44,141 nucleotides of DNA from Chloroflexota bacterium (GTDB taxonomy: Bacteria > Chloroflexota > Anaerolineae > Anaerolineales > Villigracilaceae). Positions 5,586 to 37,551 of this stretch are shown one piece after another. Each line of letters opens with the position of its first letter. Position 1 is the first letter of the stretch. The translations under genes and the position numbers were made by a program. The notes beneath the pieces are model-generated. The model was given only the letters and a program-made list of their open reading frames with translations, was not told the origin of the DNA and did not search any database. Location of the stretch: contig JACRLB010000008.1 in NCBI GenBank assembly GCA_016235445.1, positions 1 through 44,141 of the forward strand, read 5' to 3'.

Positions 5586-5673
5586 GAGGCCTCCTGTTGA
5601 GAAAAAACCGCCGGTCGATGATGGCTTATCTTCAATATTAACACAGATACAACCCGGCAACTATTTTGATTTT

Positions 5674-5802: not shown

Positions 5803-5918
5803 TTTTAACAACTTCTCACAAAAGTCTAATATAAAAAAGGGTATCTTTTTCCAACCTTTTTCGACCTTTTAGGTAATGGAATAATTATAAAGACATGATT
5901 AGAATACGCTCGAACAAC

Positions 5919-5947
5919 TTGCTAGTTCCATGATTTCAAAATATAAT
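5919..5947 (+). promoter_or_regulatory. sigma-70-type promoter of the FprA-like gene
   Basis: TTGCTA (5919-5924), a 17-bp spacer and a perfect TATAAT (5942-5947), with a predicted start near 5954 and a leader of about 25 bases carrying GGAGG before ATG 5979. Confidence 0.8.
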
Positions 5948-5978
5948 CGCACAGTTTTTGTCTGATTTACGGAGGCAT

Positions 5979-7292
5979 ATGAGCACTTCAACTTATTCTG
6001 TAGCAATTATAGGGGCGGGGCCGGCTGGCCTGTTTGCCGCGCGCGAACTTGCAAACCAGGGCGCGCATGTGACGATTTTCAATCGCGATATTAAACCCGG
6101 CGGGCTTGCTGAATATGGCATCTATCCGGAAAAGCATACGATGAAAGAGGGACTGCGCAAGCAGTTCCGCCAAACGCTTGAGCTTGCAAACATTGATTAT
6201 TATGGGAATGTTTCGGTTGGCACGAACGGCGACCTGACGCTCGATGACATTCGCGCGCTGGGCTTCGATGCGGCGCTTGTTTCGGCTGGCGCGCAGGGGA
6301 CAAAATCTCTTGGCCTGCCGGGCGAAGACCTCGAGGGCGTGTACCATGCCAAGGATGTGGTTTATTTTTACAACAAGCTCCCGCCGTTCAGCCAGAAAAA
6401 ATTCCGTTTTGGAAAACGCTGTGCCATCATTGGCGCGGGTAACGTGATGGTGGATATTGCCCGTCATCTCATCAATGTGCAAAAAGCGGAGGAAGTGACC
6501 GCCATTGTGCGGCGCGGCCCTCTCGAAGTCAACTTCACCAAGGAAGAGATGAAGCACTTGATCGGATATCTCAACTTGCAGGAATTTGACAAGGAAATGG
6601 AGCGCGTGCGCCCTGCCCTATCCGCGATTCATCAGGACCTGGAAGTTGGTCGGCACAAAATTTTGGATTCTCTCGCGAAGGCAGACCCCAAAACCTCGGA
6701 TGCGCATTTTCATTTTGATTTCCTCGCCTCCCCCACCGCCATGTACGGCAAGAATGGCCTGCTGACAAAACTGGAAGTGGAGGATAACATCCTCACCGAA
6801 AAAGACGGCAAGACCAGCGCCAAAGGCGCTGGCGTAAAACGTATGCTGGATGTGGATACGGTCATCTTCGCCATTGGCGACAAAGTGGACGACTCTTTCG
6901 GTTTGCCCACCGAATGGAACGAGTTTGTCAAAAACAAGGAACCACGCTTCCCCGTGGAAGGCGTTTCATACGAATCTTCGGTTGAAGGAATTTTCGTCGG
7001 GGGCTGGTCTCGCAAGGCAAGCGAGGGACTGGTAGGTTATGCCCGCCGTGACGGAATCAACGCTGGCAAGGCTGTCTTCCAATATTTGCAGACAAAGCAG
7101 GCCGCCAACGTCAGCGCCGAAGCGGTTGTTGAAAAAATGAAATCACTGCACAAGCCGATCATCGTGAAAGACGATATCAAACGCCTCGAGGAAGTGGAGG
7201 CGGAGGAAGCCAAAAAGCGCGGGGTGGAGGAATTCAAATTCGCCAGCAACGAAGAGATGTTGCAGGCAATGGGGCTGATGGAGACGGTGTAG
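5979..7292 (+). CDS. FAD-dependent ferredoxin/NADP oxidoreductase (FprA / glutamate-synthase-beta-like)
   Basis: ATG 5979 is preferred over an in-frame ATG 21 bases upstream because GGAGG sits 4-8 bases before it. The 437-residue flavoprotein has an N-terminal FAD Rossmann motif GAGPAGLFAARELA and a second, NADP-binding one, GAGNVMVDIARHL, near residue 155. Both the order and the stretch YYGNVSVG...GAQGTKSLGLPGEDLEGVYHAKDVV match the adrenodoxin reductase/FprA branch, which moves electrons between NADPH and ferredoxin. A Lys/Glu-rich C-terminal tail of about 60 residues (from VVEKMKSLHKP) extends beyond the core and may be lineage-specific. It is monocistronic, with its own promoter and terminator. 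The partner could be a ferredoxin rather than a glutamate synthase alpha subunit, which is absent here. Confidence 0.85.
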   Translation: MSTSTYSVAIIGAGPAGLFAARELANQGAHVTIFNRDIKPGGLAEYGIYPEKHTMKEGLRKQFRQTLELANIDYYGNVSVGTNGDLTLDDIRALGFDAALVSAGAQGTKSLGLPGEDLEGVYHAKDVVYFYNKLPPFSQKKFRFGKRCAIIGAGNVMVDIARHLINVQKAEEVTAIVRRGPLEVNFTKEEMKHLIGYLNLQEFDKEMERVRPALSAIHQDLEVGRHKILDSLAKADPKTSDAHFHFDFLASPTAMYGKNGLLTKLEVEDNILTEKDGKTSAKGAGVKRMLDVDTVIFAIGDKVDDSFGLPTEWNEFVKNKEPRFPVEGVSYESSVEGIFVGGWSRKASEGLVGYARRDGINAGKAVFQYLQTKQAANVSAEAVVEKMKSLHKPIIVKDDIKRLEEVEAEEAKKRGVEEFKFASNEEMLQAMGLMETV

Positions 7293-7371: not shown

Positions 7372-7776
7372 TTACCGATCTTGCGATATTTTTTCTTCAG
7401 CAGTTTTAACAAATTGCTCTGCAGACTTTAATATCTGCTCGGCTTGTTCCATATTAACATTGGCATTGTCTTCATAATCTCCGATCTGGCGAACATCGAA
7501 AGCTTTGTGCAGCATTTTGCTCATATCTTTAGGAAAAATTTTGGTCTTTACAAATATTTCATCAAATAACGAAAGTACACCAAGATGTTTTGAGGACTCT
7601 TTGTCCACTGTGGCAAGCAAAGCCAGGGCGGCATAAAACATCGCGTAATAAGATCGATTCACAATGCTTACGGGACTTCCACCTGTATTGTATAAATTAT
7701 ACGCATCAAGCAGGGTTATATTTGCGCGTTCAAGACGATGTTGTATTAAAGCGCGTTTGTAATCATCGTCGGTCAT
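7372..7776 (-). CDS. hepT: HEPN domain protein, toxin of an HEPN/MNT module (UPF0332-like)
   Basis: The 134-residue all-helical protein matches the HEPN family: NRSYYAMFYAALALL in the second helix and VRQIGDYED in the third, the R-x(3)-DY form seen in the UPF0332 branch instead of the classical R-x4-6-H RNase motif. HEPN toxins of this type are RNases silenced by AMPylation by the cognate MNT nucleotidyltransferase. Its ATG overlaps the stop of the MNT gene by 4 bases, so the pair is translationally coupled, with the antitoxin first. Without the canonical His, RNase activity is uncertain. Confidence 0.85.
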   Translation of the reverse strand: MTDDDYKRALIQHRLERANITLLDAYNLYNTGGSPVSIVNRSYYAMFYAALALLATVDKESSKHLGVLSLFDEIFVKTKIFPKDMSKMLHKAFDVRQIGDYEDNANVNMEQAEQILKSAEQFVKTAEEKISQDR

Positions 7777-8102
7777 ACAACCACCCCTTCCTTCTTAATG
7801 GACCGATACAAAGGGAGAAATCCATATTGGGTGATGTGTTCTTTCGTCGCAGGGATGGTGGAAATAAACTTCCCTGCATCAAACCCAACTTCCCATGCAA
7901 TGTCAAATGCAAGATTCAACATCTTGCTGTCCAACGAAGGCAAAATCACAAGCAGGTCAATATCCGATTCCTTCGTCGCGTCGCCACGCGCCTGGGAGCC
8001 AAACATAATCACTTTGACGGGTTGGCCCAATTCTTCCATCAAGCGTTTGCGGACCTCTTGAGCAAGTTTGAGCGCACGCACTCTCGGACGGAATTTCTTC
8101 AT
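7773..8102 (-). CDS. mntA: MNT-type nucleotidyltransferase, antitoxin of the HEPN/MNT module
   Basis: A 109-residue minimal nucleotidyltransferase with the pol-beta signature G35-S-Q-A-R-G-D...S-D47-I-D49-LLV: the Gly-Ser motif and two metal-binding Asp are intact. A third acidic position is plausible around FDAGKF. MntA proteins AMPylate the partner HEPN protein and neutralise it. It overlaps the HEPN gene by 4 bases. A TATAAT at 8114-8109 lies only 6 bases from the ATG, so the mRNA is probably leaderless. Confidence 0.88.
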   Translation of the reverse strand: MKKFRPRVRALKLAQEVRKRLMEELGQPVKVIMFGSQARGDATKESDIDLLVILPSLDSKMLNLAFDIAWEVGFDAGKFISTIPATKEHITQYGFLPLYRSIKKEGVVV

Positions 8103-8108
8103 GCACTA

Positions 8109-8114
8109 ATTATA
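8109..8114 (-). promoter_or_regulatory. -10 element of the MNT-HEPN operon (leaderless)
   Basis: On the minus strand TATAAT ends 6 bases before the ATG at 8102, which would put transcription start at or next to the start codon. There is no Shine-Dalgarno sequence, and no good -35 is visible. Confidence 0.6.
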
Positions 8115-8134
8115 ATCCCGCTTGCTTGCTTACT

Positions 8135-9322
8135 TTACTTTACCACGCCGCTCATTTGCGATTTACTAATTTGATTGCTTGAGTACCCCAATAGTTCCTG
8201 CAAAATCGAAACCGTATGTTCCCCCATCAACGGCGGATGTAACCGATACTCCACAGGCGTGTCACTCATCTTCAACGGCGAGCCGACTAAAGGCAACTCG
8301 CCAATGGTGGGATGATCCATTTTCACAAGCATCTCGCGTTCCTTCACAGTCGGCATCGAAAAGACCTGCTCAAAATTATTGATCGGTCCACAGGGGATTT
8401 CGGCCTGTTCCAAAACAGACAACCATTCACTCGCACTGCGAGTCACAAAAATAGACTTGAGCAGAGGAATCAATTCATCTCTATTTTCCACACGCGCTGA
8501 ATTTTTCGCGAATCTCAGATCACGTACCAATTCCGATTTACCAATTACTTTGCAAAAAGCTTCGAACTGTTTCTCGTTCCCCACCGCAATCGCAAACCAT
8601 CCGTCACTGGCTTGAAAGCTTTGGTACGGGACGATATTCGGGTGCGCGTTGCCATGCCGCTTTGGCAATTTGCCCGAGATCAAATAATTACTGGCAACAT
8701 TCGCCAGCCAGCCCAACTGCGAATCGAACAAGGCGATATCGAGATGCTGTCCCTCTCCCGTTAAAGTGCGCGCTTGCAAAGCGGCCAGAATTGCGATGAT
8801 GGCATTCTGTCCCGCGAATAAATCTACAACCGCCACGCCAGTTTTCATCGGCTCGCCTTCGGGTTCGCCAGTGATGCTCATCAAACCACCCAACGCCTGA
8901 ATCATAAAATCGTAGCCAGGCTTATCTTTCATCGAGCCCGTCTGCCCAAAGCCAGTGATCGAGCAATAAATTAATTTCGGGTTCAGTGCGTGCAGGGTTT
9001 CAAAATCCAGGCTAAATTTTTCCAGCGTGCCGGGGCGAAAATTCTCAACCAGCACATCGCTTTGCATGGCAAGCTCGCGCAAAATATTTTTCCCCTCGTC
9101 GGTTTTCAAATTCACCACCATGCCGCGCTTGTTGCGGTTGACGCATAAATAATACGCGCTCTCCCCACCCGCAAACGGCGGCCCCCACGCACGCGTCTCA
9201 TCGCCTTCGGGCGGCTCCACTTTGATCACCTCCGCGCCCAGGTCACCGAGAACCATCGTACAATATGGGCCTGCGAGCACGCGGCTTAAATCCAACACAC
9301 GAATTCCTTTTAAGGACTGCAT
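8135..9322 (-). CDS. family III CoA transferase (CaiB/BaiF)
   Basis: The ATG at 9322 is chosen for its upstream GGAGAAAT and because the family begins with LKGIRVLDLSRVLAGP; the frame extends 13 codons farther. The 395-residue length is normal. Conserved features: GDLGAEVIKVEPPEGD, NRNKRG, the DVLVENFRPG block, and LDIALFDSQLG, which holds the catalytic Asp that forms the acyl anhydride. The family moves CoA between carboxylic acids (formyl/oxalate, succinyl/malate or mesaconyl, carnitine). No substrate can be assigned from the context: the neighbours are an HEPN/MNT pair and a divergent TIM-barrel protein. Confidence 0.93.
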   Translation of the reverse strand: MQSLKGIRVLDLSRVLAGPYCTMVLGDLGAEVIKVEPPEGDETRAWGPPFAGGESAYYLCVNRNKRGMVVNLKTDEGKNILRELAMQSDVLVENFRPGTLEKFSLDFETLHALNPKLIYCSITGFGQTGSMKDKPGYDFMIQALGGLMSITGEPEGEPMKTGVAVVDLFAGQNAIIAILAALQARTLTGEGQHLDIALFDSQLGWLANVASNYLISGKLPKRHGNAHPNIVPYQSFQASDGWFAIAVGNEKQFEAFCKVIGKSELVRDLRFAKNSARVENRDELIPLLKSIFVTRSASEWLSVLEQAEIPCGPINNFEQVFSMPTVKEREMLVKMDHPTIGELPLVGSPLKMSDTPVEYRLHPPLMGEHTVSILQELLGYSSNQISKSQMSGVVK

Positions 9323-23667: not shown

Positions 23668-26016
23668 ATGAACACATCAGCCCCTCCCCTGCTTGACCAG
23701 GTACGCATCCTTGTCGTGGACGACCACCCCAACACGGCCACTACACTGGCGCGCGCCCTTGCCCAAATTGGCCCCTCGGTGGAAGTGGTATCTGCCGCGA
23801 GCGGCCGTGAAGCCCTGGAAAAAGTAAAAAACAAAGGCGTGGATATTTTATTCACCGACATGATCATGCCGGAGATGACCGGGCTGGAGTTGATCGAAAA
23901 ACTGCAAAAACACCCCGGCGGGCGGCCTTCCTACACCTACCTCGTCACTGCCTATGATGTGCCCGGCCTAAAAGTGACGGCACAGCGTTTGAAGGTGAAC
24001 GAAGTGATCGTGAAACCTGTGCGCCCCGAGCGGATTTGCCAGATCGCCACGCAAGCCATGCAAGAGATGAACAATGTCAGCCAGCCTGTCAAACAGCCGC
24101 CGGCAGGCAGGAGAAAATTCAAGATCCTCGTTGCAGATGACCGCCCGGACAATGTAACCCTGCTGGTGCGTTATCTCGAATACGAGGGCTACGATCAGGT
24201 GATTGCGCAGGATGGCATGGAAACCGTCGAAAAAGTGCGCGACGAAATGCCAGACCTCGTTTTGCTGGATGTTAATATGCCGCTGAAAGACGGCTTCTCG
24301 GTGCTGAGCGATATTCGTTCCGACCCTGAAACGAGCCACATCCCTGTAATTATTCTTACCGCCGCGCGCCTCGATCCTTCGGATGTGCAATCTGGTTTGA
24401 ACCTGGGCGCGGATGATTATGTGACCAAACCCTTTGACCGCCACGAACTGATGGCGCGTATCCGCACCAAACTGCGGGTGAAAGAGGCGGAGGATATCAT
24501 CCGCCGCCGCAACCGTGAATTGAATCTTCTGCCTGAGATCGGCAGGGAATTAAGCGCGCGCACGGATATTAAAGACCTCGCTAATGTTCTGCTCAAACGC
24601 ACGGTGGAAACGCTGGGCGCCATTCAAGGGAATATGCTCATCCTGCCTTCGGGGGCCAGCGCCAGGCAAAATTATCAGGTTTCGTTATCTCCCGCTGAAG
24701 ACCACGCCCATGAGCTGGAGATTTCCGAAAGCCTGATCGCGCATTTGAAGGACGATCCCCAGGGCCTGGTTGTAAACAACGCCTTCAACAACCCGCTCTG
24801 GCAAAATGATAACAATCCCTTTATTGGTTCGGCGGTCATCGCGCCTTTAAACGGCCGCCACGAATTATTGGGTTTGCTCATCCTCACCCATGAGCAGGAA
24901 TATTATTTCAACCCCGATCACCTTCTGCTCCTGCAAGCCATTGCAAGCCAGGCGGCAATTGCCGTGGAAAATGCGCGCTTGTATGCCGATGTGGCCCAGG
25001 AACAAAAAAGGCTGGCCGCCATCCTGCAACATGCCGCAGAAGCGATCTTGTTATTCGATAAGAGCGGCAGGCTGTGCCTTTTGAACCCCGCGGGCGAAAA
25101 GCTGTTTACCGATTTCAACGCACCCATCAACGAACCGCTCCCCAGCGGGGCGGGCTATGAAGCGTTCATCAAAATTCTTGAAGAAGCGCGCGCATCGCAA
25201 GTCTCCAAATCTGCTGAAGTGATCTGGGCCGACAAACGCACCTTTATGGCGTTGATCACCCCCATCGAAGACGGGGGGCAGGTGGCAATTTTGCATGATG
25301 TTACCCGCTTCAAAGACCTGGAAAAGGTCAAAAACGAATTCATTGCCACCGCATCGCACGACCTGAAGAATCCGCTCACCGCCATCTCCGGTTTCAGCAA
25401 CCTGCTCGAACAGGTGGGCGCGCTTACCCCGCAACAACATGAGTTTGTGAAATACATCCAATCGGCGGCGGCCAACATGGGCGAGCTTGTCCAGAACATG
25501 ATGTCGCTCGCGCAGATGGATTTGGACGCCATGCAAAAGCATACCACCGTGGATATGGAAACCCTGCTCGCCGACATGGCGGATGAATTTACCCCGCAGG
25601 CTCAAAAGAAGGAACAAACCCTGAAGTTCACGCCTCTTTCCGCGCCGACGCCTGTCAACGGCGACCCGTTGCAGTTGCGCCAACTCTTCCGCAACCTGCT
25701 GGGCAATGCCATCAAATACACCGCAAAGGGCGGGGAAATCCAGCTAACCGCCAAAATGGACAACTCACAAATTTTGATCAACATCCAAGACAACGGGTTT
25801 GGAATCCCAACCCCAGACCTGCCGTTCATATTCGACCGCTTCTATCGCGCGCGTGAGGGGAAGGCCGGCGAGGTGGAAGGCAATGGGCTTGGGCTGGCCA
25901 TCGTCAAATCCATTGTGGAACAGCATCATGGACAAATCAGCGTGCAGAGTGAGTTGAATAAGGGAACTTGTTTTAACGTTTCCCTGCCTGTTTCCGACAT
26001 TCGCCATTCTGTATAA
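23668..26016 (+). CDS. hybrid histidine kinase REC-REC-GAF-PAS-HisKA-HATPase
   Basis: The 782-residue soluble kinase begins with two receiver domains: REC1 (about 10-130, D64 in FTDMIMPEM) and REC2 (about 150-275, D201 in LLDVNMPLKDG, Lys in YVTKPFD). A GAF-like domain (about 285-440), a PAS domain (about 455-555: AILQHAAEAILLFDKSGRLCLLNPAGEKLF), HisKA with H564 (ASHDLKNPLTAISGF) and HATPase (N-box LGNAIKYT, DNGFGIP, GNGLGLAIV) follow. N-terminal receivers feeding a C-terminal kinase suggest it relays phosphate from another kinase, plausibly the one at 19995. No membrane segment is present. It ends before a terminator, so it is its own unit. Confidence 0.92.
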   Translation: MNTSAPPLLDQVRILVVDDHPNTATTLARALAQIGPSVEVVSAASGREALEKVKNKGVDILFTDMIMPEMTGLELIEKLQKHPGGRPSYTYLVTAYDVPGLKVTAQRLKVNEVIVKPVRPERICQIATQAMQEMNNVSQPVKQPPAGRRKFKILVADDRPDNVTLLVRYLEYEGYDQVIAQDGMETVEKVRDEMPDLVLLDVNMPLKDGFSVLSDIRSDPETSHIPVIILTAARLDPSDVQSGLNLGADDYVTKPFDRHELMARIRTKLRVKEAEDIIRRRNRELNLLPEIGRELSARTDIKDLANVLLKRTVETLGAIQGNMLILPSGASARQNYQVSLSPAEDHAHELEISESLIAHLKDDPQGLVVNNAFNNPLWQNDNNPFIGSAVIAPLNGRHELLGLLILTHEQEYYFNPDHLLLLQAIASQAAIAVENARLYADVAQEQKRLAAILQHAAEAILLFDKSGRLCLLNPAGEKLFTDFNAPINEPLPSGAGYEAFIKILEEARASQVSKSAEVIWADKRTFMALITPIEDGGQVAILHDVTRFKDLEKVKNEFIATASHDLKNPLTAISGFSNLLEQVGALTPQQHEFVKYIQSAAANMGELVQNMMSLAQMDLDAMQKHTTVDMETLLADMADEFTPQAQKKEQTLKFTPLSAPTPVNGDPLQLRQLFRNLLGNAIKYTAKGGEIQLTAKMDNSQILINIQDNGFGIPTPDLPFIFDRFYRAREGKAGEVEGNGLGLAIVKSIVEQHHGQISVQSELNKGTCFNVSLPVSDIRHSV

Positions 26017-26149: not shown

Positions 26150-28552
26150 ATGAGAGAATGGTTTTCAAAACTTCTGGCAGAAACAACACCCCCGGGCCGC
26201 AGAGCATTTCAAATTTCGCTCGTTATCATGGGGCTGGTTGTTTCCACTTTACCTATTTATTTTTATATCTATAGCGTGTCGAAGGCATGGCAGGTTTTGG
26301 GAATCATATCTGCCATGGTGGTTCTGGGTATGATGATGCTCTACACTGCCGTCATCGCGCGGGACAATCGGCACCAGGCATCCATAAACCTGATGATCCT
26401 CAGCCTGGGGATTTTTGTTTTGCTCCTGGTTGGGTGGGTTTCAAACCTTGGGCTGGCGCTTGCCACAGGCTTGTTTATCTTTACCACCATGGCGGCAGGG
26501 CAGGCGCTGACCAGCAAAGAAGCTCCGCGCACCATATTAATTAGCCTGACGCTGGGCGTGACCGTTTTTTTGATGGACCTGTTTGCCTGGTGGGAGCGGC
26601 TTTCCGTCCCGGCGCTTGAAACGTTAATTCCATACATTACCGCACTCGTCATCCTCTATCAGGCATCGCAAATCATTCGCCAGTTTGGAAGTTATTCGAT
26701 CCGCACGAAGTTCATTGTGACGCTTGTGGGAACTTCACTGGTTTCCATTGTCATGGGCGCTTTCGTGACAAACCGTGTGTACACAAAACAGGCCAGTGAC
26801 CTGATTGGGCAGGACCTCAATGCCATCGCAAAAACCACCTCCACGGGAATATCCCTTTTGCTGGAGAAAAGCCTGGATCAGTTGAACATCCTGGGGCTCA
26901 ACAAGTTCATTCAGGATAATGTCGAAGACAGCAACGCCACCGGCACTTCAGATTTGGGGAAACTCGAAGCGCTGGATGGTCAATGGAGAAATTCATCGGA
27001 ATTCAGCGATCTGGTCCGCGGGGTGTTGGACAATGAACTTGCGGGGGAATTAGGGGAATTTCAATCCCGCTATCCTGAAATCGAGGAGGCGTTCATCACA
27101 GATAAATATGGCGCGGTGATCGCTTCCACCGTGCAAACTTCAGACTATTACCAGGCCGATGAAGAATGGTGGCAAAAGGCATGGAGTGACGGGAAGGGCG
27201 GTATTTACATCAGCCAGCCCGTGTTTGATGAAAACACCAAAGTTAACGCCATTATCATGGCCATCCCCATTTCCGGGCATAATCGCTCCTACTATGTGGG
27301 TGTGCTCCGCATTACCCTGAATATTTCAAAATTCAATTCCATCCTGGAAGGCGGTCATTTCGGTCAAACCGGCCACGCGGATCTGTATTTTGCGGACGGT
27401 CAATATTTGAACGACGATCCATCGAAGGGGTTGTTGTCTGCATCGGAAGAATCGGTTTCAATACCTGCCGAGGGCGGCGGGGAATTTAGCGAGATGAACT
27501 ATGAAGGGAATATAAGCCTTGTCAGCCGCAGTTCGATTAAGACAAACCTGCCGGGGATCGACCAGGTATTTCAGGATCTCGGCTGGTTTGTGGTGGTTCA
27601 CCAGCATAGTTCCGAGGCACAGGCCCCCATCAAAACAACGCAGAGGTTAATTTCACTGCTCTCGCTGGGGCTGTTGATGGGCGTTGCATTGCTTTCCTAC
27701 TACCTTGGCAACCAGTTCATCCGTCCAATCGAGAACCTGACAAATGCCGCAACACGCATGGCTCACGGCAACCTGCAAATGGTTACAGGCATCAACTCTC
27801 AGGATGAAATCGGGTTGCTGGCGAATTCATTCAATGCCATGACCAGCCAGTTGCGGGATGTTTTAGAGGGACTGGAACAGCGTGTGACCGACCGAACCAA
27901 AGCCCTGGTTACATCCACGGAAATCAGCCGCAAGCTTTCCACAATTCTCGATGAAAAACAACTGGTTGCTGAAGTGGTGGAACAAATCAAAACGACCTAT
28001 AACTATTATCATGGGCAAATTTATTTGCTCGGTGAAGACGGCCAGACTCTTGTTTTGGCGGGAGCAAGCGGGGAGGCCGGGAAAAGCCTGCTTGAACGAA
28101 AGCATGTTATTTCCATCGAACGCGGCGTGGTTGGGCGGGCGGCCCGCTCGAAAGCCAGCGTTCTGGTTCCCGATACCTCCAGGGATTCGGATTGGATTCC
28201 CAACCCCCTCCTGCCCGATACAAAGGCGGAGGTGGCGGCGCCGATTCTATCGGGAGATGAACTGCTGGGCGTGATCGATATGCAGGATGATGTGATCGGC
28301 GATATTTATATGGAGGATGTCGAATTTCTTCAGTCGATTGCCAGCCAGGTTGCTGTCGCCTTGAAAAATGCCCGTTCGTATGCCGGGGCGCAGGCCCGGG
28401 CGGAGCGCGAAGCGTTGATCTCTTCCATCAGTCAAAAAATCCAAAGTGAGACGACGGTGGAAAGCGCGATGCAGGCGGCCATCCGTGAAGTTGGACGCGC
28501 CCTGGGCGCCAGTACCCGCATCAAGTTGAAATCCAATCATGGAGAGAGGTAG
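26150..28552 (+). CDS. membrane sensor: 7TM-like region, Cache, HAMP, GAF, no kinase domain
   Basis: The 800-residue protein starts with about six or seven hydrophobic helices (residues 20-215), then an extracytoplasmic dCache-type domain (about 220-490), a further membrane helix near 500-515, HAMP (about 520-580: PIENLTNAATRMAHGNLQ, DEIGLLANSFNAM) and one GAF domain (about 590-750, WIPNPLLPDTKAEVAAPI). It stops without a HisKA, GGDEF or methyl-accepting domain. AAAGGAAG precedes the ATG. It is the first gene of a tight operon and may signal by contact with the large kinase at 29888, whose Cache/HAMP/GAF layout it shares. Confidence 0.85.
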   Translation: MREWFSKLLAETTPPGRRAFQISLVIMGLVVSTLPIYFYIYSVSKAWQVLGIISAMVVLGMMMLYTAVIARDNRHQASINLMILSLGIFVLLLVGWVSNLGLALATGLFIFTTMAAGQALTSKEAPRTILISLTLGVTVFLMDLFAWWERLSVPALETLIPYITALVILYQASQIIRQFGSYSIRTKFIVTLVGTSLVSIVMGAFVTNRVYTKQASDLIGQDLNAIAKTTSTGISLLLEKSLDQLNILGLNKFIQDNVEDSNATGTSDLGKLEALDGQWRNSSEFSDLVRGVLDNELAGELGEFQSRYPEIEEAFITDKYGAVIASTVQTSDYYQADEEWWQKAWSDGKGGIYISQPVFDENTKVNAIIMAIPISGHNRSYYVGVLRITLNISKFNSILEGGHFGQTGHADLYFADGQYLNDDPSKGLLSASEESVSIPAEGGGEFSEMNYEGNISLVSRSSIKTNLPGIDQVFQDLGWFVVVHQHSSEAQAPIKTTQRLISLLSLGLLMGVALLSYYLGNQFIRPIENLTNAATRMAHGNLQMVTGINSQDEIGLLANSFNAMTSQLRDVLEGLEQRVTDRTKALVTSTEISRKLSTILDEKQLVAEVVEQIKTTYNYYHGQIYLLGEDGQTLVLAGASGEAGKSLLERKHVISIERGVVGRAARSKASVLVPDTSRDSDWIPNPLLPDTKAEVAAPILSGDELLGVIDMQDDVIGDIYMEDVEFLQSIASQVAVALKNARSYAGAQARAEREALISSISQKIQSETTVESAMQAAIREVGRALGASTRIKLKSNHGER

Positions 28553-28560
28553 AGAAGGCC

Positions 28561-29874
28561 ATGTTGAATTCCATTCGCAGATTTTTTTCAGCCCCGATAT
28601 TCGCGGACAATGAGGAGAAAACCCGGCGGGCGCGCCTGTTGCATGTGATTCTGGTTGCACAGACTTATGTGCTGTTTGTTGCCATGGCAGGGGTAATTAC
28701 CGGCCCGGCAGATGGCGAACCCCGCACCTTTGAATTGTTCGTTATGGCTTTTGGACTCGGCCTGATCGTAATTTGGCGTTTCCTCATGCGGCGCGGTTGG
28801 GTCAGCCTTCCAAGTATTGGGATGCTCATTTTTTTCCTCATCGGTGTTTCCATGATTCTTGCTTCGGGGGGCACCATCCGCTCTGCAGGGGTTATCTATT
28901 TTCCATCCATTGTGGTGATGGCAACCTTGCTGGTCAATCGGCGGGCGGGCGTTGTATTCTTTTTGATTAGCAGTCTGATCGGCATAGCCCTGACGCTGGG
29001 TGAAATTAACGGCATTCTGCCCGCGCCAGCGAATGCCACGAGTTTCGCTTCGATAGCGATTATTACTTCGGGTATGGGGTTAACCCTTGTCCTTTTGTAT
29101 CTGGCGACTCAAAGTACAGATGAGGCTCTGAAGCGGGCTGTTGAAAAGGAGCAGGAGGTTCGCGAGCTCGCTTCGACTCTGGAAAAAAGAGTGGCAGACC
29201 GCACGAGGGCATTGGCCACTTCCGCAGAAGTCAGCCGCCGCCTTTCCACCATCCTCGATGAGAGACAGCTTATTGCAGAAGTGGTGGAGCAGATGAATAC
29301 CGCCCTGCATTACTACCATGCCCACATTTATCTTTTTAATGAATCAGGGGATGAATTGATCATGATGGGAGGAACGGGCGAAGCCGGTCAGGCGCTTCTG
29401 GCGCGCGGACATAAGATTGCCAAAGGCAAAGGCCTGGTGGGCCGCGCCGCTGAAACCAATTCGTTGATTCTGGCGGGCGATACATCCAAAGACGCGGGCT
29501 GGCTCCCCAACCCCTTGCTGCCAGACACAAAATCGGAGGTGGCTGTGCCCATCTCGCTGGGCGCGGAAGTGTTCGGCGTGCTGGATGTGCAACAAAACGC
29601 GGTGGATGGCTTGCAGGAAGCGGATGCTGACCTGCTCCAGTCTATTGCCTTTCAGGTGGCGGCGGCCTTGAAGAATGCTCAAACCTATTCTTTCACCCAA
29701 CAGCAGGCTGACAAGGAAACGCTGATCAATACGATTGGCAGAAAAATACAAAATACCGCTTCGGTGGAACAAGCCTTACAGGTTGCAGTCCGTGAGCTTG
29801 GGCAGGCGCTGGGCGCAAGGGATTCGCGCATTGTCCTCAGCCTGGCTGAATCGGTACTGATGGAAGACCGTTAA
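28561..29874 (+). CDS. membrane GAF sensor without kinase domain
   Basis: The 437-residue protein has about six membrane helices (residues 25-185), a coiled linker (ALKRAVEKEQEVRELASTLEKRVADRTRAL) and one GAF domain (about 218-378, WLPNPLLPDTKSEVAVPI), then about 60 residues of helix. Its GAF is clearly paralogous to that of 26150-28552. No output domain is present. It starts 8 bases after the previous stop and ends 13 bases before the next start, so it must be co-transcribed. Confidence 0.85.
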   Translation: MLNSIRRFFSAPIFADNEEKTRRARLLHVILVAQTYVLFVAMAGVITGPADGEPRTFELFVMAFGLGLIVIWRFLMRRGWVSLPSIGMLIFFLIGVSMILASGGTIRSAGVIYFPSIVVMATLLVNRRAGVVFFLISSLIGIALTLGEINGILPAPANATSFASIAIITSGMGLTLVLLYLATQSTDEALKRAVEKEQEVRELASTLEKRVADRTRALATSAEVSRRLSTILDERQLIAEVVEQMNTALHYYHAHIYLFNESGDELIMMGGTGEAGQALLARGHKIAKGKGLVGRAAETNSLILAGDTSKDAGWLPNPLLPDTKSEVAVPISLGAEVFGVLDVQQNAVDGLQEADADLLQSIAFQVAAALKNAQTYSFTQQQADKETLINTIGRKIQNTASVEQALQVAVRELGQALGARDSRIVLSLAESVLMEDR

Positions 29875-29887
29875 AGAGAGTTGCCCC

Positions 29888-32800
29888 ATGACCAATCAAC
29901 AGCCAATAGATGACAATATGAAGAAACGAATCAATCGCCTGTTTTCGGATCAGGAACTCCCATCCTATGCCAGCCTGAGTGAAGTTGAGGCGATGAAGAA
30001 ACGCATCAACAGCCTGGAGACGGAGCTGGCCCAGCAAACGAAAAACGTTGACGAGGCCCGGGGTGCGGATTCTCCGACCCAGCCTGTTCTAAAACCGTTT
30101 TTAGCGGAGCGTTCAAAATCATTCGCGCAGAAGGTTAAGATTTCGATCCAATCGAAAATTACCCTTTGGGCAGGGTTATGCCTTATTTTGGTAACGGTTA
30201 TTCTGGTGGGGTACTCGGTGGCCACCTTCCGCGCCGAGGAAATTAAATTCGCCCAGTCCAATGCGGTTGTACATGCCGAAGAAGAGGCGGGCCGTGTAAG
30301 AATTCAACTCGAGCCTGCTTTGACCGTTGCCATCAACCTGGCTCACAGCCTGGGCATGGGAAAAGACTCCAACGAACCTGTCGCTTTAACGCGCGAACAG
30401 GCAAACGGGATTTTGAAGAAAACGCTCGAAGAAAACCCCGAATTCCTGGGAACCTGGACGTTATGGGAGCCAAACGCCTTTGACGGATTGGATGCGGAAT
30501 TTGCCAATATGCCAACCCACGATCAAAGCGGGCGTTTTATTCCCTATTGGGTGAGAACCGCCCCGGAAATAATCGAAGGCGTGGCCATCGTTGATTATGA
30601 AACCCCGGGCGTCGGCGACTTTTACCTCCTCCCCCGCCAAACGAAGAAGAATACTGTTTTACCGCCATACCTGTACCCCGTGGACAATGTGGATGTTTTG
30701 ATGACTTCCATGGTGATTCCCATTGTGGAGAATGGCCGCTTCTATGGCGTTACAGGGGTGGACTTGCAAATCGATTTCGTTCAAAACATTGTCGATGAAA
30801 TCGATCTTTATGACGGAACCGCCAGCGCAGTCCTGTTCACCGATTCAGGCTCATTGGTTGCTGTTCGCAATCAACCTGAGTTGACTCTCCAGCCTGTGAC
30901 TTCGGTCTATGAAGATTTCGAACAAATCAAACCGAACCTGGGCAGAGCGGGAACATTTATCAGCCAAAGCCCGGACGGCAAGTACCTGCGTGTTTTTTCA
31001 CCGATTGAGTTCGGCGAAAGTGAAAATTACTGGTATATCGGGCTGAGCATTCCCTACGAGAAGATCACCGAGGGCGCCGCCGCCGCCGCAGTTCGACAAA
31101 CATCCATTGGACTGGGCCTGCTGGCGCTGGCGCTGGCATTGCTTTGGGTTCTCACAGGTCAGGTCGTAAAACCTGTCCGCTCATTAACGAAAGTGGCCGC
31201 AGAGGTGGCAGGCGGTAATCTCAATGTGTCTGCCAACGTGAGGGGCAATGACGAAGTTGGCGTGCTTGCAAACGTCTTCAACTCGATGATCGTACAGTTG
31301 CGCGACCTGTTTGGCACATTGGAACAGCGCGTGGCAGACCGCACCCACGATCTCGAGCTGGCATCTGAAGTAGGCAGGACCGTGGCAACCCGGGTGGATA
31401 ACTTGAACGGGTTATTAAACGACGCAGTGGAATTGATCCACGCCCGCTTTGGTTTGTACTACACCCAGGTGTACATTGCGGATCAATCCGGCCGCACCAT
31501 TACCCTGCGCGCTGGAACGGGCAAGGTAGGCAGACAGCTTTTACAGCAGGGGCATAAACTCCTGGTGGGTTCGGGTTCCTTGAATGGACGCGCGGCCTCC
31601 GAAAAGCACGCCATCATTGTGGCAGACACATTAAACAACGAAGCCTTCCTGCCCAACCCACTGCTCCCAGACACCCGCTCTGAAATGAGCGTACCGCTTT
31701 TAATCGGTGATCGTGTGGTGGGAGTTCTGGATATGCAAAGCGAACAGACCGATGCCCTCAATGAAAACAACCTGCCCGCCTTCGAAGCCCTTGCTGGTCA
31801 ATTGGCTGTGGCGGTTCAAAACGCAACTCTCTTCGAAGAAGCGAATCAGGCGCGCAAGGATGTGGAACAGCAGGCCAAACGGCAATCCTATGCCGATTGG
31901 GCCGATTTCCTCAACGCGGTGGAAAGAAGCGAGAAGCTGGGGTACATCTTCAGCCAAAATGAAATCCTTCCCTACATCAACAGCGCGGACGAACCCGAGG
32001 AGTTGAACTCGCTTCATTCGCCCGTACACGTGGCAGGGATCGAAATTGGCAAGATTCACATCATGGACGGCACGGAACGCCAATGGACCACCACAGAAGC
32101 CGACATCATTCACAACACCGCCCTGCAACTCTCGCGCCATATCGAAAACTTGAGATTGCTGGCTCAATCCGAAAAATACCGCCTCGAGGCCGAACAGGTA
32201 TCGAAACGCCTGACACGCGAAGGCTGGGAAGAATATCTCAATGCCCGCACAAATATTGCAGAGGGCTATATCTACCGCGAAAATACGGTACAACCTTTAA
32301 TCAATAACGACAGCAATCAGGGCAAGCCCGCCCTATCCTACCCCATCCTTGTGCGCGGCGAAAATATCGGTGAATTATCGGTAGAGTCGCTGGAGAATAT
32401 GGAAGGGGACGCCTCAGGCATCGTTTCCATCATCACCCAGCAGTTGAGCAGTCATATTGAAAACCTGCGCCTTTTGGAAGAGACGGAAACCAGCCGCGCA
32501 GAAGTTCAAAAAAGCCAGGAACAATACAAACTGGCTGTTACAGGCTCCAACGACGGCCTCTGGGACTGGGACATTGCCAACGATCAAATCTATTATTCCC
32601 CCCGCTGGAAGTCGATGCTTGGGTATGAAGAGCATGAATTAACCAGGGGCTTTCAAGATTGGGAAGACCTCATCCACCCCGATGACCATGATTATGCAAC
32701 CCACTCCCTCGATGAGTATCTCGAACAACAAGCGCAAGAATACGACGTTGAGGTCCGCCTGCGTCACAAAGACGGATCATGGCGCTGGATCCGCGACAGA

Positions 32801-34165
32801 GGCAAGGCCCTGCGCAGGGATGATGGAACGCCATACCGAATGGCCGGAACCCATACCGACATCACCCAGCGCAAACTGGATGAAACGATCATTGCCCAAC
32901 GCGCCAACCAGTTGGAAACCGTGGCGGCCTTGTCCACCACCGCCTCCACCGTGTTAAACCCGGATGAACTCCTGCAAACCGTGGTGGACTTAACAAAGGA
33001 ACGTTTCGGCCTGTACCATGCCCATGTCTATCTTGCCGATGAATCATGGAAGACCCTCCTGCTTGCCGCAGGAGCGGGGGATGTCGGCTCTCAAATGGTG
33101 GCGGCAGGCCACGCCATTTCCATGGACACGGAACGATCCCTTGTGGCGCGCGCAACCCGCGAACGAAACGCGATCATTGTCAACGATGTCCGCAGTGAAC
33201 CGGACTTTCTGCCCAACGCCCTGCTCCCTGAAACACGCGCAGAGATGGCCGTGCCCATGATCGTGGGAGATAAAATCCTCGGCGTGTTCGACGTACAATC
33301 AGAAATCGAAGGCCGCTTCACCCAGGAGGATGCCAGCATCTTCAACACGCTTGCGGCGCAATCGGCTGTTGCCCTGCAAAACGCCCGCCTCTACCAGGAA
33401 CAGGCCGCCACAGTCACCCAGCTCCGCGAGTTGGACCGCCTCAAATCCTCCTTCCTCGCCAACATGTCTCACGAACTGCGCACCCCGCTCAACTCCATCC
33501 TCGGCTTTGCAGATGTGATGCTCGAAGAACTCGACGGCCCGTTGACCCCCAACATGGACAACGACCTCAAACTCATCCAAAAGAACGGCCAGCACCTGCT
33601 CCACCTCATCAACGACGTGCTCGACATGGCAAAGATCGAATCGGGCAAGCTCAACCTCATCATCGAAAAATTCAACCTGCACGAGATCATGGAAGAAGTT
33701 ACCAGCATCACCTCCCCGCTTGCCAGTGAAAAAAACCTCGCCCTCTTCATGCACCCCGACTCAGACCACAAACTGGAAATAAGCGCAGACCGCAACCGCT
33801 TGCGCCAGGTCATGATCAACCTCCTCAACAACGCCATGAAATTTACAGGGAAAGGTAAAATCTCGATACGCATTGCGCGCGAAGGCGAAAACGCACTCAT
33901 CAGCGTCAAAGACACAGGCATCGGCATCCACCCATCCCAATTGGAAGCCGTCTTCCAGGAATTCACGCAGATCGATTCATCCACCACCCGCAAAGCAGGC
34001 GGCACCGGCCTCGGCCTGCCCATCAGCCGCCGCCTCATCGAATTGCACGGCGGAAGCCTCTGGGCTGAAAGCTCCGGCATCGAAGGCCAGGGCGCAACCT
34101 TCCACGTCTCCCTGCCCATCGAATCAAAAGTAGCCGCATCCGAACCCATCACAAGAAAACTCTAA
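29888..34165 (+). CDS. very large Cache-HAMP-GAF-PAS-GAF sensor histidine kinase
   Basis: A 1425-residue membrane kinase. In order: a coiled N-terminus (1-60), first membrane helix (about 90-113), double Cache sensor domain outside (about 115-395), second helix (about 405-427), HAMP (430-480), GAF1 (487-650), two tandem copies of a short GAF-like module (660-757 and 762-864), PAS with PAC (880-1000), GAF2 (1005-1170), HisKA with H1195 (MSHELRTPLNSI), and HATPase (about 1280-1415; LLNNAMKFT, DTGIGI, GTGLGL). Kinase residues are intact. The stop is 1 base from the start of the PLP-receiver fusion, which makes that fusion its probable phosphorylation target. Confidence 0.92.
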   Translation: MTNQQPIDDNMKKRINRLFSDQELPSYASLSEVEAMKKRINSLETELAQQTKNVDEARGADSPTQPVLKPFLAERSKSFAQKVKISIQSKITLWAGLCLILVTVILVGYSVATFRAEEIKFAQSNAVVHAEEEAGRVRIQLEPALTVAINLAHSLGMGKDSNEPVALTREQANGILKKTLEENPEFLGTWTLWEPNAFDGLDAEFANMPTHDQSGRFIPYWVRTAPEIIEGVAIVDYETPGVGDFYLLPRQTKKNTVLPPYLYPVDNVDVLMTSMVIPIVENGRFYGVTGVDLQIDFVQNIVDEIDLYDGTASAVLFTDSGSLVAVRNQPELTLQPVTSVYEDFEQIKPNLGRAGTFISQSPDGKYLRVFSPIEFGESENYWYIGLSIPYEKITEGAAAAAVRQTSIGLGLLALALALLWVLTGQVVKPVRSLTKVAAEVAGGNLNVSANVRGNDEVGVLANVFNSMIVQLRDLFGTLEQRVADRTHDLELASEVGRTVATRVDNLNGLLNDAVELIHARFGLYYTQVYIADQSGRTITLRAGTGKVGRQLLQQGHKLLVGSGSLNGRAASEKHAIIVADTLNNEAFLPNPLLPDTRSEMSVPLLIGDRVVGVLDMQSEQTDALNENNLPAFEALAGQLAVAVQNATLFEEANQARKDVEQQAKRQSYADWADFLNAVERSEKLGYIFSQNEILPYINSADEPEELNSLHSPVHVAGIEIGKIHIMDGTERQWTTTEADIIHNTALQLSRHIENLRLLAQSEKYRLEAEQVSKRLTREGWEEYLNARTNIAEGYIYRENTVQPLINNDSNQGKPALSYPILVRGENIGELSVESLENMEGDASGIVSIITQQLSSHIENLRLLEETETSRAEVQKSQEQYKLAVTGSNDGLWDWDIANDQIYYSPRWKSMLGYEEHELTRGFQDWEDLIHPDDHDYATHSLDEYLEQQAQEYDVEVRLRHKDGSWRWIRDRGKALRRDDGTPYRMAGTHTDITQRKLDETIIAQRANQLETVAALSTTASTVLNPDELLQTVVDLTKERFGLYHAHVYLADESWKTLLLAAGAGDVGSQMVAAGHAISMDTERSLVARATRERNAIIVNDVRSEPDFLPNALLPETRAEMAVPMIVGDKILGVFDVQSEIEGRFTQEDASIFNTLAAQSAVALQNARLYQEQAATVTQLRELDRLKSSFLANMSHELRTPLNSILGFADVMLEELDGPLTPNMDNDLKLIQKNGQHLLHLINDVLDMAKIESGKLNLIIEKFNLHEIMEEVTSITSPLASEKNLALFMHPDSDHKLEISADRNRLRQVMINLLNNAMKFTGKGKISIRIAREGENALISVKDTGIGIHPSQLEAVFQEFTQIDSSTTRKAGGTGLGLPISRRLIELHGGSLWAESSGIEGQGATFHVSLPIESKVAASEPITRKL

Positions 34166-34166
34166 C

Positions 34167-35825
34167 ATGGCAAAACCAACCTTCCTGCAATGCGCCCTCT
34201 GCGGCAACCAACAGCCCTACGAACCCTTCGTGCCAGCCGCCTGCAAACATTGTCAATCGCAATGGCTCGAAGCGCATTACGATTACGAAGCCTTCAAACG
34301 CGAAATTCTACGCGGCATCCCCAACCGCCCAAATAATCTGTGGCGTTATCAGGATGTCCTACCGCTTGAGAATCCCTCCGCTTTAGACCTCTACCCCGCT
34401 GGCGGAACGCCTCTCTGGCTGTCAGCACGCTTCGCGCCTAATCTGGGGCATGGTTCTGTTTACATCAAAGACGAGCGCTACGGCCCGACATCTTCCTTCA
34501 AAGACAGGCAGGCCGCAGTAGCCGTGGCCGCCATGAACGAAAATGGAATCCGCGAAGCCGTCATCGCATCCACAGGCAATGCCGCCGTGGCGTACGCCGC
34601 CGCCTGTGCGCGGGCGGGAATCAAACTCTGGGTCTTCATGACCAGCCTCGTCCCGCAGGAAAAACTGCGCGAAGCCGCCCTCTTCGGCGCGGAAGTGATT
34701 CGCGTCAGCGGCAATTACGACCAGACCAAACAGATCGCCAGCCAGTTCGCCCAGCGCAAGAATCTACTTTTGGATCGCGGCGCAAGCTCCGTCCCCGCCC
34801 GCGAATCGATGAAGACCATTGCCTACGAGATCGTCGAGCAAATGGGCTGGCGCGCGCCAGATTGGTACATTCAAGCCGTCAGCGGCGGGCTTGGTCCGCT
34901 GGGCGTGTATCAGGGTTTCAAAGAATTATTTGCAATGGGGCTGATCGATAAAATCCCCAAGCTTGCCATTATCCAGGCGGACGGATGTTCCCCGATGGTG
35001 CAAGCCTTCAAAGCTGGCAAAGATGTTGCCGAGCCTGTCATCCCCGACACGCGCATCATCATCCTTTCCACAGGCGACCCTGGCAAATCCTACACGTATT
35101 TATGGAATCTCACCCAGCAATACGGCGGCCTGATGGAATCAGTGACCGACCTTGAAGCCTACTCGGCCATGCGCGCGCTTGCCAAAAGCGAGGGAATGGC
35201 CGTCGAACCGGCAACAGCCGTCGCCTTCGCAGGATTCGAAAAATTATCCAAAGAAGGAAAAATCGGCGCGGATGAAAAAGTCGTCATCAACTGCACAGGT
35301 CACACCTTCCCCGTCGAAAAGCATGTACTCGGCGATCAGTGGGCTGTGGATGTGCATCTCAGCAAAGACCAGTCCCCCGCGCCGCGCGAAGGCTTGCAAG
35401 CCGCCCTCGAAAATCTGGACGAAAAGACCACAACTGTGTTATTGATTGATGACAACGACGACGACGCCCTGCTCATTCGGCGATTGCTGGAAGGCAGAAA
35501 AAATTACCGCATGTACCACGCCAAAGACGGCTGGGAAGGCCTGGCAACAGCGCGCCAAAAACTGCCCGATCTCATCGTCAGCGACCTGACCATGCCCGGC
35601 ATGGACGGCTTTGGGCTGGTGGAGGAATTGAAACTCGACCCGCGCACGAAGGATATTCCCGTGGTCGTCGTCAGCGCAAAAGATATTACGATGGAAGAAC
35701 GCGGCCGCCTCAACGGTCACATTGAAGCGCTGTATCAAAAAGGCTCATTGCCCACCCGCAAATTTGTGGATCAGGTCATTCACGTGATCGAAGAAAAAAA
35801 CGAATCCAAAAGCGGAGTTCAATAG
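34167..35825 (+). CDS. threonine-synthase-like PLP enzyme fused to a C-terminal response-regulator receiver domain
   Basis: One continuous 552-codon frame joins two families. Residues 1-400: an N-terminal zinc ribbon (CALCG...CKHC) and a fold-II PLP enzyme of the threonine synthase group, with Schiff-base Lys K112 in SSFKDRQA, a cofactor phosphate loop STGNAAVA, and SGGLGPLG. A linker of about 22 residues follows. Residues 424-545: a complete receiver domain with acidic pair LIDDND, phospho-acceptor D473 in VSDLTMPGMDG, the conserved Ser in VVSAKD, and Lys in YQKGSL. Phosphorylation by the kinase encoded directly upstream (1-base gap) could control the enzyme. There is no Shine-Dalgarno, so translation is likely coupled. 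It normally makes threonine from O-phosphohomoserine; the substrate here is unproven. Confidence 0.9.
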   Translation: MAKPTFLQCALCGNQQPYEPFVPAACKHCQSQWLEAHYDYEAFKREILRGIPNRPNNLWRYQDVLPLENPSALDLYPAGGTPLWLSARFAPNLGHGSVYIKDERYGPTSSFKDRQAAVAVAAMNENGIREAVIASTGNAAVAYAAACARAGIKLWVFMTSLVPQEKLREAALFGAEVIRVSGNYDQTKQIASQFAQRKNLLLDRGASSVPARESMKTIAYEIVEQMGWRAPDWYIQAVSGGLGPLGVYQGFKELFAMGLIDKIPKLAIIQADGCSPMVQAFKAGKDVAEPVIPDTRIIILSTGDPGKSYTYLWNLTQQYGGLMESVTDLEAYSAMRALAKSEGMAVEPATAVAFAGFEKLSKEGKIGADEKVVINCTGHTFPVEKHVLGDQWAVDVHLSKDQSPAPREGLQAALENLDEKTTTVLLIDDNDDDALLIRRLLEGRKNYRMYHAKDGWEGLATARQKLPDLIVSDLTMPGMDGFGLVEELKLDPRTKDIPVVVVSAKDITMEERGRLNGHIEALYQKGSLPTRKFVDQVIHVIEEKNESKSGVQ

Positions 35826-35935
35826 GGTGTGTTTCATTTCAGCTGAAACAACCGTCCCGAAGGTTTGAAAAACGGCTAAAGTCTTCGAGAAAACCTTCGG
35901 GACGTTCCATCCTTCAACTCATTTGAAACACACCC
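35825..35935. mobile_element. MITE-like element, 12-bp inverted termini gggtgtgtttca
   Basis: Perfect 12-bp inverted ends (35825-35836 and 35924-35935) enclose a second inverted repeat (cgtcccgaaggttt ... aaaccttcgggacg). A direct repeat ttcaata flanks it (35818-35824 and 35938-35944) and looks like a target duplication. The left end begins with the last base of the fusion gene's stop codon. Confidence 0.65.
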
Positions 35936-35958
35936 AATTCAATAAGGAGAATTTAATT

Positions 35959-36345
35959 ATGGGAAATAACGTTTTATACATTGAAGACAACCCGGATAAC
36001 ATGATGCTCGTCAAACGCGCGCTCGAATCGCGCGGGTATTTATTGCTTGAAGCCGGGAACGGCTTAACAGGGGTGGCAACTGCCGAACAACAAGATGTGG
36101 ACCTGATCCTGCTGGATATCAACCTGCCCGACATCGACGGCTACGAAGTGGCGCGCAGGATTCGCGCCAGCGAAAAAACCAGCCTGGCGTATGTGCCCAT
36201 CATTGCCATTACCGCCAACGCTTTAAAAGGAGACGCTGAAAAAGCGCTCTCTGCCGGTTGTGATGTGTACATGTCCAAGCCGATCAACATCCGCGAGTTG
36301 TGGGCGCGTGTCGAAGCGTTTGTGCCAGCCCCCAACCCCAGATAG
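35959..36345 (+). CDS. single-domain response regulator (DivK/Spo0F-like)
   Basis: ATG 35959 is chosen for AAGGAG 8 bases upstream; the longer frame runs back into the MITE-like element. The 128 residues are just one receiver domain: acidic pair IEDN, phospho-acceptor D53 in LLDINLPDIDG, Thr in AITANALKGD and Lys in YMSKPIN. It has no output domain and can act as a phosphate shuttle or sink between the kinases and the receiver-fused enzyme of this cluster. Confidence 0.93.
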   Translation: MGNNVLYIEDNPDNMMLVKRALESRGYLLLEAGNGLTGVATAEQQDVDLILLDINLPDIDGYEVARRIRASEKTSLAYVPIIAITANALKGDAEKALSAGCDVYMSKPINIRELWARVEAFVPAPNPR

Positions 36346-36372
36346 CATATATTTTTTTAAAGGTTGAATATT

Positions 36373-37551
36373 GTGAAAACATCGTATCTGATCGATCTGA
36401 CTTGCTCGGATTGTGGAAGATCTTTTTCCGCCAGCGAAGTTCTTACCTTTTGCCCGGATTGCCAATCCACCCTCATCTCGAATTACGACCTGAACGCCGT
36501 CCGCCAGCAAGTGGACCGCGACGAGATTCATACGCGGCCCAAAGGCATGTGGCGCTGGCATGAAATGCTTCCCGTGCAAGACCCTGAAAATATCGTGTCG
36601 CTTGGCGAAGGCGATACGCCCCTGCTCCGAATCCCCCGTGTTGGAAACGAACTTGGGCTTTCCAATCTTTTTGTAAAAGACGAAAGCAGTAACCCCACCG
36701 GCTCCTTCAAAGCCCGCGGGCTTTGCGCCGCAGTTTCCCGCGCAAAGGAACTCGGCGTTAAAAAAGTGATCATCCCAACCGCCGGCAACGCCGGCGGAGC
36801 CATGGCCGCCTATGCCGCGCGCGCCGGCTTGCAGGCTCTGATCTACATGCCAAAAGACACGCCCAACGCCAACATTCAGGAAAGCCGCATTGCAGGCGCA
36901 GAAGTGATTCTCGTGGAAGGCCTCATCAGCGACGCCGCCGGCATGGCTGGCGTCAAAGCCCGCGAAGAAGGCTGGTTCGACGTTTCCACATTCAAGGAAC
37001 CCTACCGCACCGAAGGCAAAAAGATCATGGGCTACGAACTTGCCGAAGCCTTCGATTGGACCTTGCCCGACGTGATCCTCTACCCCACTGGCGGCGGCAC
37101 AGGCCTGGTAGGCATGTGGAAAGCCTTCGCTGAAATGGAAGCCCTCGGCTGGCTAAAGGATGTGAAACGACCGCGGATGGTTTCTGTGCAAGCGGAGGGA
37201 TGCGCGCCGATCCCCAAGGCCTTCCACGCAGGCGCCTCTTTCTGTGACTTTTGGCTGGGCGCTCAGACTGTGGCATCCGGCCTGCGAGTGCCAAAGAGCT
37301 TCGCCGACCGCCTCATCCTTGCGAACATCCGCGAAAGCAACGGCACAGCAGTGGCCGTCAGCGACGAAGCGCTAATCAACGCCCAGAAAAAACTGGCCGC
37401 CCTCGAAGGCATCTTCGCCGCCCCCGAAGGCGCCGCCTGCCTTGCCGCACTGGAAGAACTCGTCAAGCAAAATTGGGTAAAACCAGATGAGCGCATTGTT
37501 ATTTTTAATACAGGGTCGGGGTTGAAATATTTGGATGCGGTGGTGCAGTAG
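36373..37551 (+). CDS. thrC: threonine synthase-like PLP enzyme
   Basis: GTG 36373 is preferred: AAAGG lies 9 bases upstream, whereas an earlier TTG would sit directly on that site. The 392-residue product has an N-terminal zinc ribbon (CSDCG...CPDC), PLP-binding K113 in PTGSFKARG, phosphate loop PTAGNAGGAM, and the PTGGGTGLVG glycine loop. Architecture fits COG0498-type threonine synthases. The K-A-R rather than K-D-R after the Lys, and TAGNAGG rather than STGNT, mark a divergent subgroup whose substrate may differ. It shares no receiver domain with the paralogue at 34167 but sits in the same gene cluster. Confidence 0.85.
   Translation: MKTSYLIDLTCSDCGRSFSASEVLTFCPDCQSTLISNYDLNAVRQQVDRDEIHTRPKGMWRWHEMLPVQDPENIVSLGEGDTPLLRIPRVGNELGLSNLFVKDESSNPTGSFKARGLCAAVSRAKELGVKKVIIPTAGNAGGAMAAYAARAGLQALIYMPKDTPNANIQESRIAGAEVILVEGLISDAAGMAGVKAREEGWFDVSTFKEPYRTEGKKIMGYELAEAFDWTLPDVILYPTGGGTGLVGMWKAFAEMEALGWLKDVKRPRMVSVQAEGCAPIPKAFHAGASFCDFWLGAQTVASGLRVPKSFADRLILANIRESNGTAVAVSDEALINAQKKLAALEGIFAAPEGAACLAALEELVKQNWVKPDERIVIFNTGSGLKYLDAVVQ

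Follow-up and report, generated by a model that had tools for sequence, protein, structure and literature searches.

The first 44,141 nucleotides of the Chloroflexota contig JACRLB010000008.1 (assembly GCA_016235445.1), which make up the stretch analysed here (the window), carry a gene in which a domain resembling threonine synthase (ThrC) is followed by a receiver (REC) domain of the two-component type, and this locus raises the following question: can a phosphorylation signal be passed directly to an enzyme of the kind that acts on amino acids? The gene (34167..35825; all window genes and domains given below lie on the + strand) has a stop-free translation of 552 amino acids in which Pfam shows both domains. 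Its parts are as follows: a probable N-terminal zinc ribbon with Cys 9, 12, 26 and 29 (34191..34253); a fold-type-II pyridoxal phosphate (PLP) domain, PALP (residues 78-378, 34398..35300; PF00291, E 4e-71), whose predicted fold matches solved ThrC and which holds the expected Schiff-base lysine K112 (codon 34500..34502), aligned with K61 of Thermus thermophilus ThrC; a linker (residues 386-420, 35322..35426); and a receiver (residues 421-545, 35427..35801; PF00072, E 4e-15) with D428/D429, the expected phospho-acceptor D473 (codon 35583..35585), S503 and K525. The Response_reg match itself spans residues 424-506 and profile positions 1-80 of 111. The preliminary description of this DNA had read the gene as a PLP enzyme with K112 and a zinc ribbon, joined in one frame to a complete receiver, and the open reading frame (ORF), the Pfam matches and the individual residues bear this out.

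Is the joining of the two domains real, and how far does it spread? It had been pointed out that the fusion would lose its meaning if it depended on a frameshift or assembly error, or if no other genome had it. Both domains lie within a single ORF in 121 of 121 loci (the window and 120 others, which were fetched because they match the fusion, so this count measures intactness and not prevalence); 99 loci are left after copies at ≥95% identity are dropped. Prevalence was estimated from genomes instead: in the family to which the window belongs, 133 of 152 genomes (81 of 88 high-quality ones) have a match to a fusion profile at 1e-150, and among 400 genomes sampled across the phylum, 41 score at fusion level (≥805 bits). 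The scores of this phylum sample are bimodal, the next match being at 307 bits, where unfused PALP proteins start. In a class sample of 298 genomes, 132 have a match at 1e-60; in 99 of these the best E is ≤1e-94, with matches extending into both domains in 97 of the 99, and in the remaining 33 (E between 1e-60 and 1e-70) the matches listed cover the PALP part only, save in genome G049, where a piece covers residues 286-539. The window's own genome has a second fusion on contig 41, 49% identical to the window copy, and among the carriers known by name are Herpetosiphon aurantiacus DSM 785 and three further strains of this cultured genus; the Pfam domain calls hold for the Herpetosiphon member. 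In a scan of GTDB contigs, the best 80 of 555 confirmed relatives are all Chloroflexota, judged from their titles. Of 72,556 plasmid records 291 match the fusion query and none covers ≥80% of it. An assembly or frameshift artefact is ruled out by the second genomic copy, the intact ORFs and the recurrence across genomes, and a chance fusion in one lineage by the 41 phylum genomes at fusion level. The PALP-REC fusion is thus real, conserved and widespread in Chloroflexota. In some lineages two receivers stand in tandem on the fusion, giving a protein of ~700 amino acids.

The residues on which each domain would depend are retained with little exception. All 41 of the fusions first aligned have K112, D429, D473 and K525, an acidic residue (D or E) at 428 and S or T at 503, together with the four cysteines, STGN 135-138 and the GGxG loop 240-243. 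In the larger alignment A2 (98 of the 99 non-redundant fusions, L157 being left out) the four cysteines, K112, S135-N138, D429, D473 and K525 are invariant. When the window gene is compared with each of six close relatives, the ratio of nonsynonymous to synonymous substitution rates (dN/dS) is ≤0.10 in PALP for five of six pairs (PALP dS is saturated for L081) and in REC for all six; both domains are under purifying selection, which likewise speaks against an artefact. In these relatives the constraint on the linker matches or exceeds that on the PLP domain, its dN being below that of PALP in six of six close pairs. Linker residues G409, L410, A413, L414 and L417 are each conserved in ≥90% of the 98 fusions, and few linker residues are conserved to this degree.

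The preliminary description had also taken the PLP domain to be a threonine-synthase-like enzyme of amino-acid biosynthesis, but is it a threonine synthase? It shares with ThrC (NF006050/TIGR00260) the fold, the Schiff-base lysine and the conserved GN and TG motifs. Foldseek places the predicted model nearest to threonine synthase 2d1f (E 8e-27), and VIA-align nearest to Arabidopsis threonine synthase 2c2b (Z 44.2, root-mean-square deviation 2.4 over 389 residues, including the N-terminal region). The family models are less generous: the PLP domain scores 243.8 bits for NF006050, for which the cut-off is 303, and it narrowly misses TIGR00260 (162.0 against 167.1 bits). It does not reach the cut-off for cysteate synthase (TIGR03844, 126.4 against 324.9 bits), and among the best 25 of 102 families the best threonine ammonia-lyase model, for threonine dehydratase (IlvA), gives 76.7 against 421 bits. 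The 35 fusions included in a 68-sequence PALP tree group together (support 100/100), and the stem leading to this clade measures 1.47 changes per site; its placement as sister to the ThrC type encoded downstream, with which the fusion shares the four N-terminal cysteines, has weak support (92/79).

The differences from ThrC lie at positions which we take to contact the substrate. In a residue table that uses the same 35 fusions as the tree (T. thermophilus numbering), R160 and R242 are replaced in 35 of 35 fusions and both are kept in 12 of 12 rows of the T type; the classical ThrC rows have R160 in three of four and R242 in four of four, and R160 occurs in just one of 17 rows labelled U. Of the 35 fusions, 33 have A, G or S at the R160 site and one has C (these being the four commonest letters). 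The ThrC GLK motif is replaced in 41 of 41 fusions. The residues R104, Q115 and Y143 are invariant and specific to the fusions. N154 and S155, with R160 presumably the contacts of the substrate phosphate in the T. thermophilus enzyme, correspond to R or K in 28 and to G in 35 of the 35 fusions, and to S and T in 12 of 12 T-type rows. The genome is moreover supplied with other ThrC-like genes: an unfused threonine-synthase-type PLP enzyme of 395 amino acids (36364..37551; NF006050, 577.5 bits, above the 303 cut-off) lies in the window itself, contig 11 has a further ThrC-like gene, and contig 13 has one that groups with the T. thermophilus enzyme. Unfused ThrC-like genes were found in eight of eight genomes searched, which rules out the fusion as the genome's sole ThrC-like enzyme. 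Judged by its sequence, then, the PLP domain is a family of its own within the threonine-synthase/PALP superfamily, set apart from ThrC by the replaced R160, R242 and GLK motif, the separate clade and the C-terminal receiver, and the assignment of threonine synthase activity, with scores below the ThrC cut-offs and other ThrC-like genes at hand, is not supported. Its substrate is probably some amino acid other than O-phosphohomoserine.

The gene order at the locus suggests where a signal for the receiver could come from. A histidine kinase of 1425 amino acids (29888..34165; Cache, HAMP, GAF, PAS, GAF, HisKA and HATPase by Pfam), the putative cognate kinase, precedes the fusion, and its ORF ends at 34165, one base before the fusion gene, as had been noticed at the outset. 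Of 94 non-redundant loci (those of the 99 with >1500 bases upstream), 83 have a same-strand histidine kinase among the two genes that precede the fusion, as do 17 of 21 clusters at 65% identity, against three of 209 control genes in the same loci; the median gap between kinase and fusion is 3 bases. These gene calls take the longest ORF, and some antisense ORFs among them look false; when a distance rule is used in their place, a kinase ORF lies near the fusion start in 95 of 99 loci. The window's genome has 46 HisKA matches in 4.1 Mb. Downstream, the window has a stand-alone receiver (35923..36345; PF00072, E 2e-26; a likelier start is the ATG at 35959 behind AAGGAG), and a gene for a receiver or receiver-kinase comes first after the fusion in 80 of the 96 loci (out of 99) used for this count and in 14 of 21 clusters at 65% identity. 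Of the 84 loci (out of 99) used for gene content, 26 have a ThrC-type gene, 10 an EamA transporter and nine a GNAT acetyltransferase among the first three genes downstream. The neighbours were classified by their resemblance to one reference protein per class; Pfam confirms the EamA, GNAT and REC-kinase references and agrees for the ten neighbours and relatives scanned. The H. aurantiacus locus runs receiver, GNAT, kinase (1877 amino acids), fusion, receiver.

In a tree of REC domains, from which a motif rule removed REC1 of L108 and the second REC of both L058 and L062, the receivers of the fusions and the lone receivers lie on opposite sides, and the sub-clades resemble those seen for the PLP domain. 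Strictly taken, the first RECs make up more than one group in this tree (2 changes). The matching REC and PLP sub-clades are as expected of a co-inherited module, several of the deep forks being moderately supported.

We consider it rather probable that the fusion works as a response regulator whose output is the PLP enzyme, which a kinase would switch and which would act on an amino-acid substrate. In such a system the receiver would be phosphorylated at D473 by a sensor kinase, for which the product of the gene directly before the fusion is the simplest candidate; the conserved linker would relay the resulting change to the PLP domain, the activity of which on its amino-acid substrate would go up or down; and the downstream lone receiver would compete for phosphate or serve as a second output of the same kinase. 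The phosphotransfer, the direction of control, the catalysis and the substrate in this scheme are what we infer. Several observations weigh against it. The linker is modelled with low confidence (predicted local distance difference test, pLDDT, <50 over residues 388-420, in a model with mean pLDDT 82.1 and a predicted template modelling score of 0.68), so that the model does not establish a domain-domain interface. Four of the 21 clusters lack a kinase among the two genes upstream, and in seven the first gene downstream is not a receiver, so the partners are not always neighbours. The relative G010 reaches 309 bits for NF006050, just above the cut-off of 303. The T-type rows themselves are without N154 and S155, so that the loss of these residues in the fusions says little about function, and basic residues near loop 204-212 make a phosphate-bearing substrate possible. 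Finally, a PLP sensor that is not catalytic would be expected to conserve its PLP residues too.

This last point leads to the main rival, in which the PLP domain no longer makes a product and has become a PLP-bound amino-acid sensor that gates the receiver in a phosphorelay. MocR-type regulators follow a comparable logic. The long stem at the origin of the clade and the loss of the ThrC-type residues would both fit such a change of role, as would surroundings made up of sensors, kinases and lone receivers, and passages of PMC5847659 on REC proteins with PAS or GAF domains show that the partner of a REC can be an input domain. The PLP site is, however, kept under strong purifying selection, with K112, STGN and an S or T at 377, and the neighbours of ThrC type, EamA and GNAT (26, 10 and nine of 84 loci, above) suggest metabolism; we regard the sensor as an unlikely outcome. 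Direct control of an ordinary threonine synthase by phosphorylation, as the preliminary description proposed, is less likely than the response-regulator account and in our estimation improbable. Threonine synthases are the top NCBIfam and PDB matches of the PLP domain, the TIGR00260 cut-off is missed by little, G010 passes that of NF006050 and a ThrC-type gene stands downstream in 26 loci, all of which would fit it; it is at odds with the replacement of R160 and R242 in every fusion of the table and of GLK in all 41, with a score of 243.8 bits where NF006050 asks for 303, and with the separate ThrC-like genes of the same genome, one of them clustering with the T. thermophilus enzyme.

The receiver might, on the other hand, have nothing to do with control: it would merely take up phosphate as a sink, or help the kinase to dock as a tag, and the PLP enzyme would be left uncontrolled. 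A low-confidence linker and an uncertain domain orientation in the model are what would be seen in that case, and the second receiver added in some lineages (the ~700-amino-acid forms) is as for a sink. The linker argues otherwise, since among close relatives it is constrained at least as much as the PLP domain and its five conserved positions are kept in ≥90% of fusions, and we hold a sink or tag to be very improbable. A more specific form of the response-regulator account can also be imagined, in which the PLP enzyme, switched by phosphorylation, produces or breaks down a small signal derived from an amino acid; in some lineages the products of neighbouring genes would export this compound (EamA) or acylate it (GNAT), and the Cache/GAF kinases would sense it or the condition that it stands for. 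We think this extension doubtful; if true, it would amount to two-component control of a metabolite signal through direct phosphorylation of its synthase.

How does a phosphorylation-controlled PLP enzyme compare with systems already known? In two-component systems the output is in most cases a transcription factor or a second-messenger enzyme. The CqsA/LqsA-type PLP autoinducer synthases are similar in that a PLP enzyme is genetically tied to a two-component system; there the enzyme, the kinase and the response regulator are separate proteins, and the enzyme is of another PLP fold type. Plant ThrC is under metabolite control and is not known to carry a receiver domain. The Arabidopsis enzyme (2c2b) is, as noted, the nearest VIA-align neighbour of the fusion model, and plant ThrC is described in PMC9081730 as allosteric and activated by S-adenosylmethionine. 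Closer in kind are the bacterial receivers attached to standard metabolic enzymes, which according to passages of PMC5847659 are known and put those enzymes under environmental control; the archaeal fusions of this sort treated in those passages have narrow phyletic distributions and include no PLP enzyme among the examples. The likeness is the attachment of a REC to an enzyme, and the PALP-REC proteins differ from the cases in those passages in their C-terminal REC, their wide spread in one phylum and the lone receiver gene that usually accompanies them.

Literature searches for the PALP-REC pairing gave no matching title or abstract opening, with the reservation that two response-regulator surveys cited by PMC5847659 might mention it; PMC4558063 has no match to PALP or pyridoxal, and its match to "threonine" refers to serine/threonine kinases. 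The regulatory system had been called possibly undescribed, and this stands for the pairing, of which we found no description, and not for the attachment of REC to metabolic enzymes, a class already described in PMC5847659: the pairing appears to be new and the kind is known. A family of response regulators with PLP-enzyme output would suggest direct and fast control of metabolism by sensor kinases, and would give proteins that look like threonine synthases a different role. The findings suggest that in many Chloroflexota an enzyme acting on amino acids may be under the direct on/off control of a signal. Since the cultured Herpetosiphon has the fusion beside a kinase gene, the idea is testable at the bench.

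Further upstream in the window, the signalling array also includes a REC-REC-GAF-histidine kinase (23668..26016). It is followed by a Cache-HAMP-GAF protein (26150..28552) and a GAF-domain protein (28561..29874), in neither of which Pfam detected a kinase domain. The latter two thus lie, sensor-like, between two kinases, and similar genes are found upstream of the kinase in many loci. The second fusion locus of the same genome (L038, contig 41, 30000-49999) has a kinase-REC, the PALP-REC fusion and an EamA transporter, with a ParA-like ATPase gene before the kinase, as in several relatives. In some loci with double receivers, NMT1/THI5-like solute-binding genes lie just upstream of the kinase (L050, 5060-7117, where the gene at 5060-6055 was labelled by eye; L062, 13496-14560), and their products are possible ligand-binding partners of the kinase. 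At L059 a REC-histidine-kinase (7705-8952, by Pfam) follows the fusion in place of the lone receiver, and a similar protein of ~412-451 amino acids is present in L060, L063, L064, L066, L068, L073, L076 and L077.

The end of the window's fusion gene coincides with a miniature inverted-repeat element of ~112 bases (35824-35938; ends GGGTGTGTTTCA and TGAAACACACCC), which is placed ahead of the lone receiver. It has at least 25 genomic copies at ≥90% identity, and its RNA is predicted to fold with -50.6 kcal/mol (z -7.3 against shuffles). The element may be mobile and may act as a hairpin inside the operon.
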